DNA of 64,000 bases from Leptolyngbya sp. PCC 6406. GTDB taxonomy: Bacteria; Cyanobacteriota; Cyanobacteriia; Phormidesmidales; Phormidesmidaceae. The notes under the pieces are model-generated. The model saw only the letters and a list, made by a program, of their open reading frames with translations, made no database searches and was not told the DNA's origin. Both the position numbers and the translations under genes were made by a program. Shown here piece after piece: positions 41,505 to 55,798 of the stretch (positions are counted from its first letter, which is position 1; each line of letters starts with the position of its first letter). Location of the stretch: positions 1,272,291 through 1,336,290 of the forward strand of contig NZ_KI913949.1 of the NCBI RefSeq assembly GCF_000332095.2, written 5' to 3'.

Positions 41505-41960
41505 ATGACCGCAACCTTAACTGCCCCTAGCCGCTGCATGGTGCTACGAGGGGTTAGCTGGGCTACCTACCAGGCATTGATTCACGATTTGGAATCGGAG
41601 CCGGGGAAACGGCTGACCTACGATCAGGGAACCTTAGAAATTATGGCCCCACTGCCTCCCCATGAAAGCTACAAGAGCCTGATGGGGCGCATGGTGGAAG
41701 TTGCTACCGAAGAAACGGAAACCGAGATTCGCAGTCTGGGCTCAACCACCTGGGGCCGGGAAGACCTGCAAAAGGGGCTAGAACCAGACGAGTGTTTTTA
41801 CATTCAAAATGAGCGGACGGTGCGGGGTAAGGATGAGATTGACCTGACCTTGGACCCACCGCCCGACCTAGCCATTCGGCGCAGTCAAACAGCGATGGCC
41901 CCTTCGGGCCGGTCCCTGACCATTGCATTCCTTGACCCCTATTCGAGCTGGCCACCCTAA
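41505..41960 (+). pseudogene. Uma2-family protein, C-terminally truncated
   Basis: Residues 1-125 (GVSWATYQALIHDLESEPGK, RLTYDQGTLEIMAPLPPHES, EIRSLGSTTWGREDLQKGLE, CFYIQNERTVRGKDEIDL, DPPPDLAI) are typical Uma2/DUF820, a PD-(D/E)XK-like fold of uncertain activity abundant in cyanobacteria. In family members DLAI continues with a catalytic E-I-D/E segment and about 60 more residues; here the frame instead reads RRSQTAMAPSGRSL and stops. The catalytic Glu/Lys region is therefore missing. A fragment with a Uma2-type end lies on the same strand at 47219. Confidence 0.8.
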
Positions 41961-42391
41961 AGAATAGTCAGGTAGGTATCGACTGAGGTTTCTGGCAATA
42001 CTTTCAGGGTTTGATTTTGCAAATCTAATTCAATGCCAAGGGCTTCTAGCGGAATCACCCCTAACAGGGCATTTTCGCCGCCAGGGAGTTCTAAACACTC
42101 AAAGCTGCCTTCGCGGCCCAGCAGAGAAATATTGGCATCTCGAAAAATACGGGCTTTACTCAGCCCAGTGGCGGTAGAAACGTCTACTTCTCGCAGGAGA
42201 TCCAACCCTAGCTGGGCGATCGCGGTGGCAGGTAAACACAGGGTCGTCGCCCCGGTATCCACTAGGACGTTATTGAGGGTGAGCGATCGCACGTCTTCCG
42301 GTGGAATCACCTGACGAGCGGCGAGGATCTGATCGGCTCGGTTTGTAATAGTCAACGTAGTCAGGATTTTACCCATCTGTTCAGTAGACAT
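41957..42391 (-). CDS. retropepsin-like aspartic protease, copy 1
   Basis: A 144-residue clan AA protease-like protein. LNNVLVDTGATTLCLPATAI carries the D-T-G active-site motif (Asp45) and LVDTG is preceded by a flap-like VRSLT. It continues SLLGREGSFECLELPGGENA and ALLGVIPLEALGIELDLQNQ, the second hydrophobic (ALLG) block of single-domain retropepsins, which work as dimers. A paralogue with 85-90% identity by eye lies at 44128-44562. ATG 42391 is preceded by a conserved untranslated segment (CTCCCGGTACTCTACCACC on the + strand) shared with the other copy, so the 43-residue upstream extension is rejected. Confidence 0.82.
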   Translation of the reverse strand: MSTEQMGKILTTLTITNRADQILAARQVIPPEDVRSLTLNNVLVDTGATTLCLPATAIAQLGLDLLREVDVSTATGLSKARIFRDANISLLGREGSFECLELPGGENALLGVIPLEALGIELDLQNQTLKVLPETSVDTYLTIL

Positions 42392-42568
42392 CGGATTGGC
42401 TCCCGGTACTCTACCACCATTGTAGGGGGGAGCATGGGGCGCGATGGTCTCCGACCGGCTAAGGGCCATCGCCCTACCAAAACCCGATAGCCCACAACCC
42501 GAATCAACCCCAACACCCATCGGGTTATTTGGGATGTAGCTAAGGCGATCTCAAACCTCAAGGGGTGT

Positions 42569-44127: not shown

Positions 44128-44562
44128 CTAAAGAATGGTCAGGTAGGTATCGACCGAGGTTTCTGGCAGCACTTTCAGGGTTTGGTTTTGCAGGTCTAAC
44201 TCAATGCCCAGGGCTTCTAAGGGGATGACTCCTAACAGGGCATTTTGACCCCCAGGCAGCTCTAAACACTCGAAGTTCCCTTCTCGCCCCAGTAATGACA
44301 GTTGGGCATCTTGAAAAATGCGGGCTTTGCTCAGTCCAGTAGCGGTGGAGACATCGACTTCCCGCAGGAGATCCAGCCCTAGCTGGGCGATCGTGGTGGC
44401 AGGTAAACACAGGGTCGTCGTCCCGGTATCCACTAGGACGTTGTTGAGGGTGAGCGATCGCACCTGGTCCGCAGGGATATACCCGCGAGAGGCTGCTGAT
44501 TGATCAGCCCGGTTGGTAATGGTCAGGGTGGTGAGGATTTTGCCCATTGGTTCGGTAGACAT
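44128..44562 (-). CDS. retropepsin-like aspartic protease, copy 2
   Basis: 144 residues, same length and strand as copy 1. NNVLVDTGTTTLCLPATTIA has D-T-G-T rather than D-T-G-A, the variant common in pepsin-like enzymes. The most divergent part is the loop TNRADQSAASRGYIPADQV. The last 90 residues differ by only a few changes from copy 1. Similarity extends past both ends, so a segment of about 480 bp was duplicated. The IS1 element begins 60 bp upstream of its start codon. Confidence 0.83.
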   Translation of the reverse strand: MSTEPMGKILTTLTITNRADQSAASRGYIPADQVRSLTLNNVLVDTGTTTLCLPATTIAQLGLDLLREVDVSTATGLSKARIFQDAQLSLLGREGNFECLELPGGQNALLGVIPLEALGIELDLQNQTLKVLPETSVDTYLTIL

Positions 44563-48524: not shown

Positions 48525-51500
48525 TCAGAGATTCCTAGAACGCCAATATGCTTGAAGTGGGCTTATCGATTTAGATCGATTGTAAGAGTGCCCTTCATGA
48601 ACCTCTAAGTGTAAATGTTGAGCCATCCAATAACCGCTGGGGAGATAAGCGCCATCAAAAACAGTGCCAATTTTCATACCCTTGGTGATAGTTTGGCCAA
48701 TGCCTACCGAGTAGTTCTCAAGGTGTCCATAGATCCAAAGGTTTCCATCATCTCCCTTCACACCGACAAAATAGTTGCCTGCAATATTCTGGACTAATGT
48801 TGTAGTACCCCCAACTACAGCCCTAACGGCATCACCAGCCAATCCAGCCATATCTATTCCATAGTGGGTGCCAGAGTAATTAGTATTGTCGAAGTATCCA
48901 GCAGTCATGGCTTTGTATGAGCCAAATATCTCATTAGAGAGATCGGAATAGATTTGCTTCACTGACAACGAACTCTCACCATTACTGGTTTTCCCATCAA
49001 AGAACAAATTGTCTTTACTCTGTTGATTCCATTCGGAACGGCTTAAAGCTGACAACTCAGCGTAATAGCCACCTGAGGCTACTTTAGGATCAGCGTTGAC
49101 AACCCAGGGCGTGCCATCAGGTGCTACGGCAATCTGAACTGCACTACCGCCGACATTGTCCCAACCCTGCCCATTCCAGCGATAAATACCGTAGCCCCCT
49201 GACTCAGCCCCCGTTCCAATCACCCAAACTGAGCCATCAGCGCCAATGCCAATGTCATTGGCTTTTCCAGGCATCGGTCGCCAAACATTATTCTCTCGCT
49301 TGTAGATGGTGCCTTGAGAATTGACGACCCAAGGTGTACCGTCAGGTGCCACGGCTACATGCACTGCACTACCGCCTACCTTGTCCCAGTTAGTTCCATT
49401 CCAGCGATAAATACCATAGCCTCCCGACTCAGCCCCAGTTCCAATTACCCAAACTGAACCATCAGCGCCAATGCCAATGTCTTTGGCTTGTCCAGGCATC
49501 CGTCGCCAAGCGTTATTCTCGCGTTTGTAGATTGTGCCCTTAGAATTAACGACCCAAGGCGTACCGTCGGGAGCAACGGCTACACGCACTGCACTACCGC
49601 CTACTTTGTCCCAGTTAATTCCATTCCAGCTATAAATACCGTACCCTCCCGACTCAGACCCAGTTCCAATTACCCAGACTGAGCCATCAGCGCCAATGCC
49701 AATATCTTTGGCTTGCCCAGGCATCTGCCGCCAAGTATTGTGACTGCGCTGGTAAATATGATTTCCCGAGTTTGGCAAGTTTGGCGTTGGTTCACTAACA
49801 ACCCAGGGGTTGCCATTAGGGGTAACTGTAATCTGAACGCCGCCACCATTTTGTCGATCCCACCCTGTCCCATTCCAACGGTGTATGGTGTATCCGCCAA
49901 AAACGCGCTGTGTTCCAATCACCCAAACTGAGCCATCAGCGCCAATGCCGATGTCTTTGGCTGTTCCAGGCATCTGCCGCCAAGCATTATTCTCTCGCTT
50001 GTAGATTGCGCCCTTAGAGTTGACAACCCAAGGCGTACCATCGGGGGCCACAGCTATTCGTACTGCACTACCGCCTACCTTGTTCCAATCCTGGCCATTC
50101 CAGTTATAAATACCGTAGCCCCCTGACTCAGGCTCCGTTCCAATTACCCAAACTGAGCTATCGGCTCCAATGCCAATGTCTTTGGCTTGCCCAGGCATCT
50201 GCCGCCAAACATTATTCTCGCGCTTGTAGATATTTCCTTTAGAGTTGACGACCCAAGGCGTACCATCGGGTGCCACAGCTATTCGTACTGCACTACCGCC
50301 TACCTTGTTCCAACCCTGGCCATTCCAGTTATAAATACTGTAGCCCCCTGATTCAGGTTCCGTTCCAATGACCCAAACTGAACCATCGGCTCCAACGGAA
50401 ATATCTTTAGCTTTACCTGGCATTTCTGCCCAGAAATCACCTTGAAGTTGATAGATAGAATCGCCCAGGTTTGTTGAGCGATGCGTTAGCCGCTGGGGTG
50501 TCGCACTAGGCGCAATAGTTACAGGCAACCCAGTCCCTACTGCATACCAAGACTGGTGACCGCTGGGTTGAATCGTTAAATAGCCCTTGGTGTAGTAACG
50601 AACAGTGACACCATTACTCATTTCCTCTTTGATGAAAGCGCCTAAATTCTGTGGAATCGAGCTGACTTGTGCGTAACCTGTCCCCGTTCCATTAACGGCA
50701 CGTTCAGAAGTTGTAAATTCCTTTGACCCTGACCAAATTTGCGGTGTAAACCAGGGTTCTGGATCATAAGGCTTGGGCGATGTCGCCTTCGCCATCAACA
50801 GCGCCGCAGGGAGATTAAGGAGCCCCGCCCCCGTCTGAGCATCCCACCCCGGCGTGTTTAGGTCCGTCGCCGTCGCCTGCAAAATCTCAATTACCTGACG
50901 ATAGCTCAACTGCGGATTCGCCGCCCACACCTGCGACACTGCCCCCGTCACCTGAGCCGTCGCCACCGACGTACCCGCCATCGTCCCCAAACCATCCGCC
51001 ATCAGCGACACCACCGGATTCTCCGCCGTACCCCCCGCAGCCAATAGCCCCAACCCATTGCCATAGCTGGAATAGGCGGCTTTACCCAGCCCATCCGCCG
51101 CGCCCACGGTGAGGATATTGTCAAACTCCTGGGCCGCCTGCCCCAGCACCGACATCACCCCGCCATCATTGCCCGCCGCCACCACCATCAGCACCCCATT
51201 TTGGCGGGCATACTCAATTGCCTCCCGCTCTTGGGGCGTGAATTCATAGCGGGTGGTCACATTACCATCGGTATCAATCTGAGTCAGGTCAAAGCTGAGG
51301 TTGACCACCGCATTGGGTTGGCCCGACTCGATCGCCGCATCCACAAACTCCGTCAAGGAATTGGCCCACTGTCCAGAGCCCACAGCCCGAGAAACCCAGA
51401 TGGGAGATTGGTCGTTGATACCGTCGATGCCAATGCCGTTATCCCGAATTGCCGCAATCTTACTCGCGACAAAGGTGCCATGGTCATCCCCTGCTCCCAG

Positions 51501-52646
51501 GGTATGGAAGGAGTTGTTGTTGCCATCCACCCAGTCCCAGCCAGAGGTGATGTTGTTGTAATTGAGATCGGGGTGGCCTGTGGTGAGGCCCGTGTCAATG
51601 ATGCCGACTAGGGGTTGGGCCGCTGGCGGGGCTGAGGCGGAGATCGCCAAGCTGCTGTCGAAGGGAGCCACATAGGATTCGGCATAGGTGTGAATTGCCC
51701 GCCCAATATCCGTGGAGCGCCAATCCTGACTGGGATCCACAAGGTCGCCCATGTACAGGGCTTTACCTTCTGCTCCCCGCACTTGGAACACGATGTCGTT
51801 GTAGTCCAGGTCAGAGCCCCGGTCTACCCGTATGTCCTCAAAAGCAAACGTATTGCCATCGCCGAAGACATCGGCGATTTGGCCCATGGCGAACATGTCA
51901 TCGGGGTTCGCCGTGGCCATCGAGAACAGCGGTGTACCGCTGCTATCGATACGGGGGTTATTGAAGGCGCTCCAGACCCGGCCCCTGGGCACCAGCATGA
52001 GGCCGAATTCATCCCCCGCCTTCATCTGAAAGGTCTTGGCTCCCAGGTAATCCCCCGAGTTCCACTGATCCAGCTTGGGATTGTATTCCCCAAAGCGGGC
52101 ACCTTCAAGGCGATCGCGGATGACGATGTGGCCTTCTTCGGTGCCAGTGAGGGCGCGGCGGGCGGCTTCGCGGATGAAGTCCTCAGAGCCCAGTTCAAAC
52201 TCCTCCATCCCCTCTAGGCTAAAGATGGCTAGTTCGCCCTGGTAGCTACCGCCATCGAAGAGATAGTCGATGGTGACTTCGCCGCTCTCGCCCACAGTAA
52301 AGACGCCAGACTCAAACTCGAAGGAGAGGCTCGTGGAGAAATCCTCTGGGGGTGGAATGAAATCAATGTCTTCGAGGTCTTCTTCCGGGGTGTTGCCGAT
52401 GTCGAAGGGGGGGGTGTCCTCAAGGTCACCGGGGTCAAAACCGCCGTCAACATCAGCTTCAGCATCCAGAGAGGACAGATCAATATCGGCCCCGTCAGGA
52501 GCATCTTCTCCTGTATCGAGAAGGCCACTGGGGGTCAGGATTTGTTCCAGCAGAAAGGTTTGGTGGACAGGTGAGGCTTCAGTGGGCTGGGGGACAAAGC
52601 CCTTAGCAGGTTGACGCCGGGTCCGAAGAGAACCAAACAGTTTCAT
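48525..52646 (-). CDS. giant DUF4114-subtilisin-tectonin-M23 protein
   Basis: 1373 residues in five parts. (1) Residues 40-105: acidic, Asp/Glu/Pro-rich linker. (2) About 110-295: DUF4114-like module (GDEFGLMLVPRG, RGSDLDYNDIVFQVRG). (3) About 340-620: S8 subtilase with Asp351 (VGIIDTG), His389 (DDHGTFVAS) and Ser560 (GTMAGTSVATAQ). (4) About 738-1198: six tectonin-like units of 75-83 residues (MPGQAKDIGIGADGSVWVIG, VAPDGTPWVVNSKG). (5) About 1258-1373: M23 peptidase with His1261, Asp1265 (HYGIDM), YGHL and His1344/His1346 (HLHLEV). No Sec signal peptide is seen; DUF4114 proteins are often exported by type I systems. Two peptidases and a lectin-like propeller suggest cell-wall attack or remodelling. 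Confidence 0.9.
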   Translation of the reverse strand: MKLFGSLRTRRQPAKGFVPQPTEASPVHQTFLLEQILTPSGLLDTGEDAPDGADIDLSSLDAEADVDGGFDPGDLEDTPPFDIGNTPEEDLEDIDFIPPPEDFSTSLSFEFESGVFTVGESGEVTIDYLFDGGSYQGELAIFSLEGMEEFELGSEDFIREAARRALTGTEEGHIVIRDRLEGARFGEYNPKLDQWNSGDYLGAKTFQMKAGDEFGLMLVPRGRVWSAFNNPRIDSSGTPLFSMATANPDDMFAMGQIADVFGDGNTFAFEDIRVDRGSDLDYNDIVFQVRGAEGKALYMGDLVDPSQDWRSTDIGRAIHTYAESYVAPFDSSLAISASAPPAAQPLVGIIDTGLTTGHPDLNYNNITSGWDWVDGNNNSFHTLGAGDDHGTFVASKIAAIRDNGIGIDGINDQSPIWVSRAVGSGQWANSLTEFVDAAIESGQPNAVVNLSFDLTQIDTDGNVTTRYEFTPQEREAIEYARQNGVLMVVAAGNDGGVMSVLGQAAQEFDNILTVGAADGLGKAAYSSYGNGLGLLAAGGTAENPVVSLMADGLGTMAGTSVATAQVTGAVSQVWAANPQLSYRQVIEILQATATDLNTPGWDAQTGAGLLNLPAALLMAKATSPKPYDPEPWFTPQIWSGSKEFTTSERAVNGTGTGYAQVSSIPQNLGAFIKEEMSNGVTVRYYTKGYLTIQPSGHQSWYAVGTGLPVTIAPSATPQRLTHRSTNLGDSIYQLQGDFWAEMPGKAKDISVGADGSVWVIGTEPESGGYSIYNWNGQGWNKVGGSAVRIAVAPDGTPWVVNSKGNIYKRENNVWRQMPGQAKDIGIGADSSVWVIGTEPESGGYGIYNWNGQDWNKVGGSAVRIAVAPDGTPWVVNSKGAIYKRENNAWRQMPGTAKDIGIGADGSVWVIGTQRVFGGYTIHRWNGTGWDRQNGGGVQITVTPNGNPWVVSEPTPNLPNSGNHIYQRSHNTWRQMPGQAKDIGIGADGSVWVIGTGSESGGYGIYSWNGINWDKVGGSAVRVAVAPDGTPWVVNSKGTIYKRENNAWRRMPGQAKDIGIGADGSVWVIGTGAESGGYGIYRWNGTNWDKVGGSAVHVAVAPDGTPWVVNSQGTIYKRENNVWRPMPGKANDIGIGADGSVWVIGTGAESGGYGIYRWNGQGWDNVGGSAVQIAVAPDGTPWVVNADPKVASGGYYAELSALSRSEWNQQSKDNLFFDGKTSNGESSLSVKQIYSDLSNEIFGSYKAMTAGYFDNTNYSGTHYGIDMAGLAGDAVRAVVGGTTTLVQNIAGNYFVGVKGDDGNLWIYGHLENYSVGIGQTITKGMKIGTVFDGAYLPSGYWMAQHLHLEVHEGHSYNRSKSISPLQAYWRSRNL
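49075..50450 (-). repeat. six coding tandem repeats (tectonin-like units)
   Basis: Units of about 225-250 bp encode W-R-x-M-P-G-x-A-K-D-I-G-I-G-A-D-G-S-V-W-V-I-G-T and a second half with V-A-P-D-G-T-P-W-V-V-N-S-K-G. Unit 3 is the most divergent (TQRVFGGYTIHRWNG). Units 4, 5 and 6 are nearly identical in DNA, pointing to recent duplication or gene conversion. Confidence 0.85.
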
Positions 52647-52974
52647 GGGAATGCTCCTGATTGCTGGAAAGAAAGCGGTCTAGGTAGCTTACGCAGAAGG
52701 CTAAGGCAGAATGCTGGGAATGACCGTGATAATTCTTACAGGGTCATACTGGGGATACTAACCTGAAATGTTTGAAATGCCCCCCCCTGTTTTGGGGTTA
52801 GCTGATGGGATGAGGGGCCATGAAACTCCTTTAATCCCTTGTCAAACAAAGCTTCTGGGGAATTGACTCACTTTTTGGCTCAGCAAAAGGTGAGCCAAAA
52901 TCAAAAAAGGTGAGCCAATAATTCAGTAATTTCCCGGATTAAGCCTCAGTAGATTCCGGTAGACATTGGGTGTT
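52647..52974. promoter_or_regulatory. divergent control region with TGAGCCAA repeats
   Basis: TTTTGGCTCA (52873-52882), eight bases, then TGAGCCAAAA (52891-52900) form a perfect 10-bp inverted repeat, and AAAAGGTGAGCCAATA (52906-52920) repeats the right arm. This cluster lies 60-100 bp upstream of the M50 gene and 230-250 bp from the giant protease start, and could be a regulator site for both. No gene is seen. Confidence 0.5.
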
Positions 52975-54429
52975 ATGCAAATTGATAGCCCAACTGCCCA
53001 GGATTGGCTTTGCCCCGACCTCAGTGCCCATTGGCGACTGCGGCAAAACCGGGTTGCCAATTGCTGGATTTTGCAGGGGCGGGAGACACCACGTCAGATT
53101 CGCTTTGACCCCATGGAGGGCTATGCCTTGGCCCGCTTTAGCGGCGGCTGGACCGTGGCCCAGATTCAGGCCCAGTGTGAGGCAGAATTTGGCACCGACG
53201 TGCCGCCGGACTTGGTGGTAACGGTGCTGACCAAGTTGGTGCAACTGGGGATTTTGGCCCCTGAGGGTGAGACCGGCCCAGAGCCCGCCGCCCCTCAATC
53301 CTTGGGGCTGAAGCCGGGGGTGCGGTGGGTGCATCAGGCCGATGGTCATTGGATTTTGGGGGATGCGGAGGGGTTGCGTCACCTGCAAGTCAGTCCTGGG
53401 GATAAGGTGATTATTGAGCAGATTGGTCACTTGCCTCTGGCGGCGATCGCACATCAGCACCACTGCACTCCACACCATCTGCGATCGCTGCTCAACCTTC
53501 TAGCCCAGGCCCAAATGCTCACGGGGGTAGAGACACCCCCCCCGCCCCGGCGCAAATTTACCCCTATACAATTGCTGTACTTCAAAAAGTCCCTGCTCAA
53601 CCCCGATCGCTGGCTAGAACGCCACGTCGGCAAACTGGGCTGGCTGTGGCGGCAATCTACCGGCCTGCTGCTCTGTGGGTTTTTGGCCTTGACGGCGGTG
53701 ATGGCCAATGCCCATCGCCCCGACCTCCTGTTCTTTGGCCAGGGACTATTGCACGCCTATGGCTGGACCCTGCTACTACCCTTTGGCCTGCTGGCCATGG
53801 CCGTCGTGTCGTTACATGAACTGGCCCACGCCTTTACGCTGAAGCACTTTGGCGGCGCGGTGTCCGACATGGGACTGCTGTTTATGTGCCTGATCCCCGC
53901 CGCCTATACCAACAGCAGCGATGCTTACCGCCTGCGCCAGGGTCAGCAGGTGTTGGTGATTGGGGCTGGGGTGCTGTGTCAGGTTGTCATTGGCGCGATC
54001 GCATTTTGGCTGTGGTTTGGCACCGCCGCCAGTGCCGGACTCCACACCCTGGCCTATCTATTAATGGTGGCGGCTCTGTTCACTGTGGCCCTGAATTTGA
54101 ATCCCATGGCCCGCTTCGACGGCTATTACCTCCTCAGTGCCGCCACCGGCATTCGCAACCTCAAACCCCGCTCCTTTCTGTTCTATGCCGCCCTCCTACG
54201 GCGACAGCCCAGCCCCGAGCAGGGCCGTGATGGTCAAAGACCGGCCAGAGGCCATCGCGCCATTCTGGCCACCTATGCCCCCCTCAGCTTTCTCTACCTG
54301 CTGCTGGTCTTTGGCAAATTATTCCTCTGGTTAGCCAATGTCATCCTGACCCACATTCCCTATGTGGCCCTGGTTCTGTTCGTTCTCTGGTGTCTCTACT
54401 ACTTTTCACCCCATGACAACCTCCCCTAA
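52975..54429 (+). CDS. M50-family zinc metalloprotease with PqqD-like N-terminus
   Basis: About 484 residues. Residues 1-100 form a winged-helix/PqqD-like region (FDPMEGYALARFSGGWTVAQ) seen in peptide-modification systems. From residue 225 come six or more membrane helices with the zinc motif VVSLHELAHAFTLKHFGGAV and the second M50 motif LNPMARFDGYYLLSAATGI. Such YydH/SpoIVFB-like proteins are coupled to HlyD adaptors in export of small peptides. The HlyD gene overlaps by 17 bases. ATG 52975 is used; the frame also opens at TTG 52966. Confidence 0.87.
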   Translation: MQIDSPTAQDWLCPDLSAHWRLRQNRVANCWILQGRETPRQIRFDPMEGYALARFSGGWTVAQIQAQCEAEFGTDVPPDLVVTVLTKLVQLGILAPEGETGPEPAAPQSLGLKPGVRWVHQADGHWILGDAEGLRHLQVSPGDKVIIEQIGHLPLAAIAHQHHCTPHHLRSLLNLLAQAQMLTGVETPPPPRRKFTPIQLLYFKKSLLNPDRWLERHVGKLGWLWRQSTGLLLCGFLALTAVMANAHRPDLLFFGQGLLHAYGWTLLLPFGLLAMAVVSLHELAHAFTLKHFGGAVSDMGLLFMCLIPAAYTNSSDAYRLRQGQQVLVIGAGVLCQVVIGAIAFWLWFGTAASAGLHTLAYLLMVAALFTVALNLNPMARFDGYYLLSAATGIRNLKPRSFLFYAALLRRQPSPEQGRDGQRPARGHRAILATYAPLSFLYLLLVFGKLFLWLANVILTHIPYVALVLFVLWCLYYFSPHDNLP

Positions 54430-55798
54430 CCCCCGGCAAAAAGCGCCCTTTAGGGTGGTGCCGCCCCCAGCCGCCCCGACACCCCAGCCGACCTCATCCC
54501 CAGCTTCCCCCCCAGCCGCCCCGAGCCAACCTCTACCCACCGATGCCCCTGCCTCGGCGGCATCGCCCTCGGCAACAGCCCCTGAAACAACGCCATTCCG
54601 GTGGCCTTGGCGCGGATTGATCGTGGCAAGCGGCCTTGTCCTAGCGGGATTTATCCCCACCCCCTACCAAGTCGGGGGCGAAGTCACCCTGGCATGGCCC
54701 GAAGGTGATCGCCAGCAAATCCGGGCTCCGATGCGGGCTATTGTCGAGGAGTTCTACGTGGCACCGGGGGATCAGGTAACGGCAGGACAGACAATTGTGC
54801 GACTCTCCAGCTTGGACCTAGAGCGAGAGATCGCTCAGCTACAGAGAGACATTGATCAGGCCCAGCAGCTTTTGGCAGAGGTGCAGCGAGAGCAACTCCA
54901 AGCCCAAGCAAGAGTAAGGGAGATCACCGCCGTAGTGGTGGTCACCGAGGACAAGACCAAGCGTGCCGTGGTCCGAGGTGAGCAGGGAGCCCAGGGGGCC
55001 ACCTTGCCTGAAATTGCCCTGCTAGAGGTACAGCGCGATCGCTTAGACAGCCAATTGGTCACGGATCGGGAGGAATGGGAGCGGTACCAATTTCTCCATG
55101 CCCAGGGTGCGATCGCAGATGAGGAAGTGCGACGGCGAGAAAACAATTACCTCAACACCCAGAAGGATCTCCAAGTTAAAGCCGCAGAGATTGCCCATAC
55201 CCGTCAGCGTCTAGCAGACACCGCCGCCGATGAAATTGGCAATGCCCAGGTGCAGGGAGCCAGCGCAGATGCTGCTGCCCTACTGGCAGGCTATCGAGAT
55301 CTCATCACGGCCCAAGAACAGGTCATCGCCAGCCACCGTGAGCGCCAACTGGCCCTCCAGGCCCAGCAGCAGAACTTGGTGCTGGTGTCCGCCCAGACCG
55401 GAACGGTTTTGGACGACGATCTCGACCTGCTGGTCGGGCAGGAAGTTACCCCCGAGAAGAACTTGCTGCGAATTGCCCAACTTAACCAACTCACCGCCAA
55501 TGTAGAGGTGAAGGAAGAAGATTTGAACTATGTTCAGCCGGGAGCCGCCGTCACCTTCCGACCCACCTCTTCTAAACTGACACCCTACGATGCAGAAGTC
55601 GATCGGGTGCTGAAGGATGTTGCCCCCGACAGCACCCAGCAGCGCCGGATTGCCACCGTGCGCGTCGTCATTGACAATGCTGATCAGCAGTTGCGACCGG
55701 GATCCGGCGGCTACGCCAAGATTTTTTCCGAGTGGATTCCCCTCTATCAACGTCTGGGACGAGAAGTGATCAAGCTAGTCCCCAGTCGTTTTCTCTAA
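54413..55798 (+). CDS. HlyD-family membrane fusion protein
   Basis: About 461 residues. A Pro/Ala/Ser-rich leader (1-60) precedes one membrane helix (LIVASGLVLAGFIPTPYQVG), a biotinyl-lipoyl-like half (IRAPMRAIVEEFYVAPGDQV), a long coiled coil (about 125-300, LEREIAQLQRDIDQAQQLLA) and a beta-barrel part (GTVLDDDLDLLVGQEVTPEK, VQPGAAVTFRPTSS). This is the adaptor of a type I-like or M50-linked exporter. No ABC transporter gene is adjacent, as is usual for M50/HlyD pairs. It is read directly after the M50 gene. Confidence 0.9.
   Translation: MTTSPNPRQKAPFRVVPPPAAPTPQPTSSPASPPAAPSQPLPTDAPASAASPSATAPETTPFRWPWRGLIVASGLVLAGFIPTPYQVGGEVTLAWPEGDRQQIRAPMRAIVEEFYVAPGDQVTAGQTIVRLSSLDLEREIAQLQRDIDQAQQLLAEVQREQLQAQARVREITAVVVVTEDKTKRAVVRGEQGAQGATLPEIALLEVQRDRLDSQLVTDREEWERYQFLHAQGAIADEEVRRRENNYLNTQKDLQVKAAEIAHTRQRLADTAADEIGNAQVQGASADAAALLAGYRDLITAQEQVIASHRERQLALQAQQQNLVLVSAQTGTVLDDDLDLLVGQEVTPEKNLLRIAQLNQLTANVEVKEEDLNYVQPGAAVTFRPTSSKLTPYDAEVDRVLKDVAPDSTQQRRIATVRVVIDNADQQLRPGSGGYAKIFSEWIPLYQRLGREVIKLVPSRFL

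Follow-up and report, generated by a model that had tools for sequence, protein, structure and literature searches.

A probable modular wall hydrolase of Leptolyngbya sp. PCC 6406 as candidate cargo of a proposed M50 protease/HlyD export system without a linked ABC transporter

A large modular protein, probably able to bind sugars and to degrade the cell walls of bacteria, is encoded opposite an M50 membrane protease and an HlyD-type adaptor in a 64,000-nucleotide stretch of the genome of Leptolyngbya sp. PCC 6406 (hereafter the window). Recurrence of this arrangement across many genomes, together with a common tag at the start of the large proteins, suggests that the protein is probably exported without the usual ATP-driven pump. 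We consider it fairly likely that it is the cargo of an M50/HlyD export system, in which the N-terminal tag would serve as signal, the exit would probably be a single TolC-type factor and the wall-attacking tail would come to lie outside. The fusion of a subtilase (S8) with an M23 peptidase, which had first drawn attention to the locus, is not unique; what is new is the system formed by the M50/HlyD pair, the cargo and its motif.

The cargo (P0001) consists, in order, of a basic N-terminus, an LEP/TPSG motif, an acidic linker, DUF4114, S8, tectonin propellers and M23. Its features are as follows.

48525..52646, minus strand: cargo gene, 1373 aa, from the open reading frame and Pfam, with an RBS-like AGGAGC upstream of the ATG
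52563-52646, minus strand: K/R-rich stretch preceding the motif QTFLLEQILTPSGLLDT
52512..52562, minus strand: N-terminal motif QTFLLEQILTPSGLLDT, residues 29-45, putative export signal, from a cargo alignment and a class-wide scan
52302..52514, minus strand: acidic linker, residues 45-115, with 24 D/E and no K/R, a pattern repeated in 29/29 aligned cargoes
51774..52025, minus strand: DUF4114, residues 208-291 (Pfam E=8e-21), inside the putative gene-conversion patch common to the paralogue at G000:C1:2423141
50823..51614, minus strand: Peptidase_S8, residues 345-608 (Pfam E=1e-31), triad D351, H389 and S560 intact, plus oxyanion N493
49098..50435, minus strand: six tectonin units (Tectonin E=8e-58), about 12 blades, probably two six-bladed propellers, from Pfam and a structure model
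48588..48869, minus strand: Peptidase_M23, residues 1260-1353 (Pfam E=8e-12), ligands H1261, D1265, H1344 and H1346 intact

The original prediction had assigned DUF4114, a subtilase triad, six tectonin units and a complete M23 site to a single chain, and all were recovered at their predicted positions with scores well above chance. The tectonin units are spaced by 75-83 aa and amount to twelve half-units, which suggests two six-bladed propellers. As assessed by structure modelling from the single sequence, this region is predicted to fold as a beta-propeller (pLDDT ~80), and its closest match in the PDB is the fungal lectin tectonin 2, whose structure was determined together with methylated sugars. 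This domain content argues for the tail being an extracellular glycan-binding peptidoglycan endopeptidase, in line with the cell-wall factor that had been proposed. The first 60 residues of P0001 lack a Sec-like hydrophobic core, with a 12-residue Kyte-Doolittle maximum of 1.08 versus 2.17 for a Sec-type control. M23 and tectonin are also paired outside this system, in a Sec-type protein of another genome (G033, L067:7580-8827) that has M23-like N-terminal and tectonin C-terminal domains.

The divergent region and the M50/HlyD pair contain the following features.

52875..52898, no strand: palindrome TTGGCTCA-8-TGAGCCAA (= TTGGCTCAGCAAAAGGTGAGCCAA) in the divergent intergenic region, possible operator
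52909-52918: direct GGTGAGCCAA copy near the palindrome, in the same region
52975..54429, plus strand: M50 membrane metalloprotease, proposed ATG start at 52975 in an open reading frame that opens at TTG 52966
53002..53271, plus strand: PqqD-like winged-helix domain of the M50 protein (weak match)
53302-53535, plus strand: probable second winged-helix-like unit of the M50 protein, residues 113-190
53815..53829, plus strand: HELAH zinc/catalytic motif of the M50 protein, the second motif ARFDG lying at ~54109-54123
54413..55798, plus strand: HlyD periplasmic adaptor, confirmed by Pfam HlyD, likely ATG start at 54413 (MTTSP) in a longer open reading frame that opens at 54362

Both starts were chosen because homologues begin there. 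With these starts, the M50 and HlyD genes overlap by 17 bp, which bears out the predicted overlap, and the gap between cargo and M50 shrinks slightly, from the 330 bp first given to 328 bp. The M50 assignment holds: the window protein keeps HExxH (H284/E285/H288) and NPMARFDG, Pfam M50 matches 8/8 family members searched, and both HE[LF][GA]HA and the aspartate of the second motif are present in 22/22 M50 proteins compared. The PqqD-like N-terminus that had been described is a weak assignment: TIGR03859 matches it at E=5e-5 to 5e-4, Pfam PqqD reaches E=0.16 in 1/8 members, and its top PDB sequence match, PqqD itself (3g2b), has an E value of only 0.2. A single-sequence structure model of M50 was unusable (pLDDT 45), which we counted against the export reading. 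The N-termini of the window HlyD (~54440-54470) and its relatives have in common a conserved motif, P[FL][RK][VL]VPP (FRVVPP here), which is predicted to be cytoplasmic and is a possible docking site.

We then asked how consistently cargo and M50 occur together among 388 cyanobacterial genomes of the class. The M50 family, counted at E<1e-60, is found in 24/388 genomes. DUF4114-S8 fusions occur in 23/388, and 18 of these 23 also have the M50 family (Fisher p=1e-21), which lends good support to the predicted export-and-processing partnership. Where a genome's homologues contain DUF4114 or S8 but not both, the M50 family is no commoner than background (2/52, p=0.76). The link is also local. A motif-bearing large gene lies within 10 kb, or is truncated at a contig edge, at ~18/21 evaluable M50 loci, which is the opposite of a pair that occurs mostly without the large protein; many of these loci are divergent as in the window. 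Leptolyngbya sp. PCC 6406 itself contains another M50/HlyD locus (L048) and another cargo (L062), which lies 1.1 Mb from the first and has CHAP, LysM and SH3 domains in its tail. Two observations were counted against the export reading: no cargo adjoins three of the M50 loci, among them the second one of this genome, and the adjacent HlyD is missing in the Calothrix/Nostoc branch.

The cargoes share the plan of their N-terminus, in which a K/R-rich stretch is followed by TFILEPILTPSGLxD (TFILEPILTPSG-like) and then by an acidic linker with hardly any K/R. A basic N-terminus with an LE(P) motif near residues 20-70 was found in 29/29 cyanobacterial cargoes examined, with the core starting at residue 18-67; the core search was pattern-based, and the invariant positions are therefore invariant partly by construction. 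We built a motif model from ten cargoes and scanned it across the 388 genomes. It detected the motif in 19/388 genomes, 16 of which also have the M50 family (p=7e-20), and the link persists when the model-building genomes are removed (10/12 with M50, p=2e-13). Because these values treat genomes as independent, the count by genus (p=4e-10) is the safer figure. The exceptions are G063, which has broken remnants only and likewise no M50, and the draft assemblies G020 and G339, whose motif-bearing fusions without a detectable M50 were counted against the export reading. Conversely, no motif is present in the relatives that were checked from M50-less genomes (L064, L065, L066, L068 and L069). One cargo beside an M50 gene (in G160) has the motif together with a dockerin and Ig domains and has neither DUF4114 nor S8, which argues that the motif goes with the exporter and not with the S8 module. 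Beside the M50 genes that have diverged furthest lie cargoes with the variant motifs LDDIITPS and LERLNTPS.

A parallel arrangement exists in Proteobacteria. On plasmids of Niveispirillum, Kosakonia, Variovorax, Eleftheria, Burkholderia, Thalassospira, Pseudosulfitobacter and E. coli, a gene encoding an M50-HlyD fusion lies beside a giant gene. At these eight loci, which are those whose giant-gene start was readable, the giants begin with LEPR-like, LEAR, LESR or IEPR motifs (e.g. LEPRMLFD and IEPRILLS), and two of them are annotated as LEPR-XLL. The companions of the fusion are an additional HlyD, one more adaptor and, in most cases, TolC, and no ABC gene was seen adjacent to any of the eight. 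On the E. coli plasmid pECTOK-001_2 (L166), and on plasmids of E. coli and Citrobacter related to it, a TolC-adaptor-HlyD-M50/HlyD operon adjoins an Ig-like giant whose start is a separate DUF4347 open reading frame with an LESRQLFDGA motif, apparently unremarked so far.

LEPR-XLL giants rank among the largest bacterial proteins. Like the cyanobacterial cargoes, the proteobacterial proteins of this family (NF012209) are very large non-Sec proteins of extracellular type in which an LEP(R) motif comes after a basic N-terminus, and at both kinds of loci an M50 membrane protease and an HlyD adaptor are adjacent whereas an ABC gene is not. There are also differences. The cyanobacterial motif is LEPILTPSG, M50 and HlyD are separate genes rather than a fusion, TolC is unlinked, the M50 protein has an additional N-terminal domain, and the cargoes are DUF4114-S8 hydrolases instead of Ig/VCBS giants. 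Membership in LEPR-XLL as defined by NCBIfam was rejected, since NF012209 found no match at its 17-bit cut-off in the N-termini of the window cargo, L051 and L140, whereas the Thalassospira and Pseudosulfitobacter controls scored 29 and 33 bits. A paper on a Vibrio genome (PMC10868602) mentions LEPR-XLL briefly. In the open-access literature, which was the scope of our search, we found neither a description of how LEPR-XLL giants leave the cell nor one of an M50/HlyD association with LEPR, PqqD or a giant protein. The LEP-type motif and its conserved link to an ABC-less M50/HlyD pair offer a concrete and testable candidate for both the signal and the exporter.

Two other readings of the M50 protein have to be weighed at this point. 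It might be a regulatory site-2 protease that cleaves an anti-sigma factor, or a peptide protease of the RiPP type, and lie close to the cargo through shared regulation or hitch-hiking. The NCBIfam models nearest to it are indeed those of daptide and YydH/LiaK peptide proteases, both well under cut-off, and the divergent promoter region does contain a palindrome. We regard this as very improbable, because the linkage is to a single type of cargo and a single N-terminal motif in many genera, it is seen again in Proteobacteria, there together with TolC and adaptors, and neither a precursor peptide nor a modification enzyme was noticed nearby. The likeness to the RiPP proteases (daptide MpaP, YydH/LiaK) lies in the M50 fold, a PqqD-like N-terminal part, weakly matched here, and presumed leader recognition; the M50 protein differs from them in its cargo of 600-4400 aa, its HlyD partner and the absence of a radical-SAM or other modifying enzyme. 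The palindrome TTGGCTCAGCAAAAGGTGAGCCAA occurs once in the 5.78-Mb genome and was rejected as a conserved operator, being absent from the intergenic regions of relatives.

The other reading is that the M50/HlyD pair only matures the cargo, with an unlinked type I ABC exporter moving it through HlyD and TolC and the M50 protease removing a leader. The window HlyD resembles DevB-type ABC-exporter adaptors, ABC genes of cyanobacteria need not be linked, and the genome has a single OEP/TolC-type gene, which is not linked to M50/HlyD. We nevertheless think this unlikely: as the original prediction had noted for the window, no ABC gene adjoins the pair, and the same is true of every related M50 locus, cyanobacterial or proteobacterial, whose gene content was read. 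The export system proposed here shares with type I secretion (HlyB/HlyD/TolC, LapBCE, DevBCA-HgdD) an HlyD-type adaptor, an outer-membrane factor and a large Sec-independent cargo, and departs from it in that no ABC transporter is adjacent, the candidate signal is N-terminal instead of C-terminal, and M50 takes the inner-membrane place.

From these comparisons we infer the following route. The basic N-terminus and the TFxLEPxLTPSG motif would form the export signal, which the PqqD-like domain of M50, itself a weak assignment, would read. M50 would act as the gate in the inner membrane; the conservation of its protease residues in 22/22 proteins argues for proteolysis, perhaps removal of the leader. 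HlyD would span the periplasm, and exit across the outer membrane would probably be via the single TolC-type factor of the genome. Once the cargo is exported, it may be processed by its DUF4114-S8 module, while the tectonin propellers would bind surface glycans and M23 would cut peptidoglycan cross-links. As no translocating ATPase was found, the energy source is the weak point of this reading, or the interesting one. More tentatively, Cyanobacteria and Proteobacteria may share an undescribed class of secretion, in which a site-2-type M50 protease replaces the ABC transporter, a PqqD-like domain reads an LEP motif and proteins of ~600 to >10,000 residues pass through HlyD/TolC, with swappable wall-attacking cargoes in the cyanobacterial branch; we hold this to be possible, and short of likely.

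What the cyanobacterial cargoes carry at their C terminus is variable. The tails comprise M23, CHAP, Amidase_3, LysM, SH3, LGFP and a ricin-type lectin, with weak lipase and GH19-like matches, and they differ among genomes as well as between this genome's two paralogues. The S8-M23 combination, put forward as a novelty, recurs in one chain in the cargoes of four other cyanobacteria (G067, G212, G114 and G094), where M23 is one of several interchangeable tails, and its uniqueness was rejected. The target would most likely be competing bacteria. The main alternative is an autolytic role, in which the cargo would act on the wall of its own producer in filament fragmentation, cell death or a motility sheath. 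Tails with M23, CHAP, amidase, LysM and SH3 domains are characteristic of autolysins, and beside the window cargo, whose nearest gene is Uma2, there is no obvious candidate for a cognate immunity gene. The swapping of tails between close paralogues and genomes, the inclusion of lectin and lipase-like domains, and a patchy distribution (24/388 genomes) unlike that of a housekeeping autolysin make us doubt this alternative, and competition with other bacteria seems the likelier use. As modular wall hydrolases, the cyanobacterial cargoes could matter for competition within mats and blooms.

The cyanobacterial cargoes resemble polymorphic toxin systems (PMC3482391), with a constant N-terminal trafficking part, an internal S8, swappable C-terminal enzymes and recombination between paralogues; in the text considered here, that survey mentions neither M50 nor type I secretion. 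They differ in having no recognised immunity gene in the neighbourhood of the window cargo, and in having cell-wall and lipid hydrolases as tails. Recombination is visible in the two paralogues of this genome (48525-52646 and L062:6399-10169), which have 91% identity at third codon positions in the DUF4114 part (residues 115-199), ~38% in both flanks and unrelated tails. Judging from this pattern, the patch confined to the DUF4114 part is a recent gene conversion.

Elsewhere in the window, two closely similar open reading frames for retropepsin-like aspartyl proteases (41957-42520 and 44128-44562) flank a PIN-like/DUF3368 pair, and similar open reading frames also lie near an M50 locus in L133.
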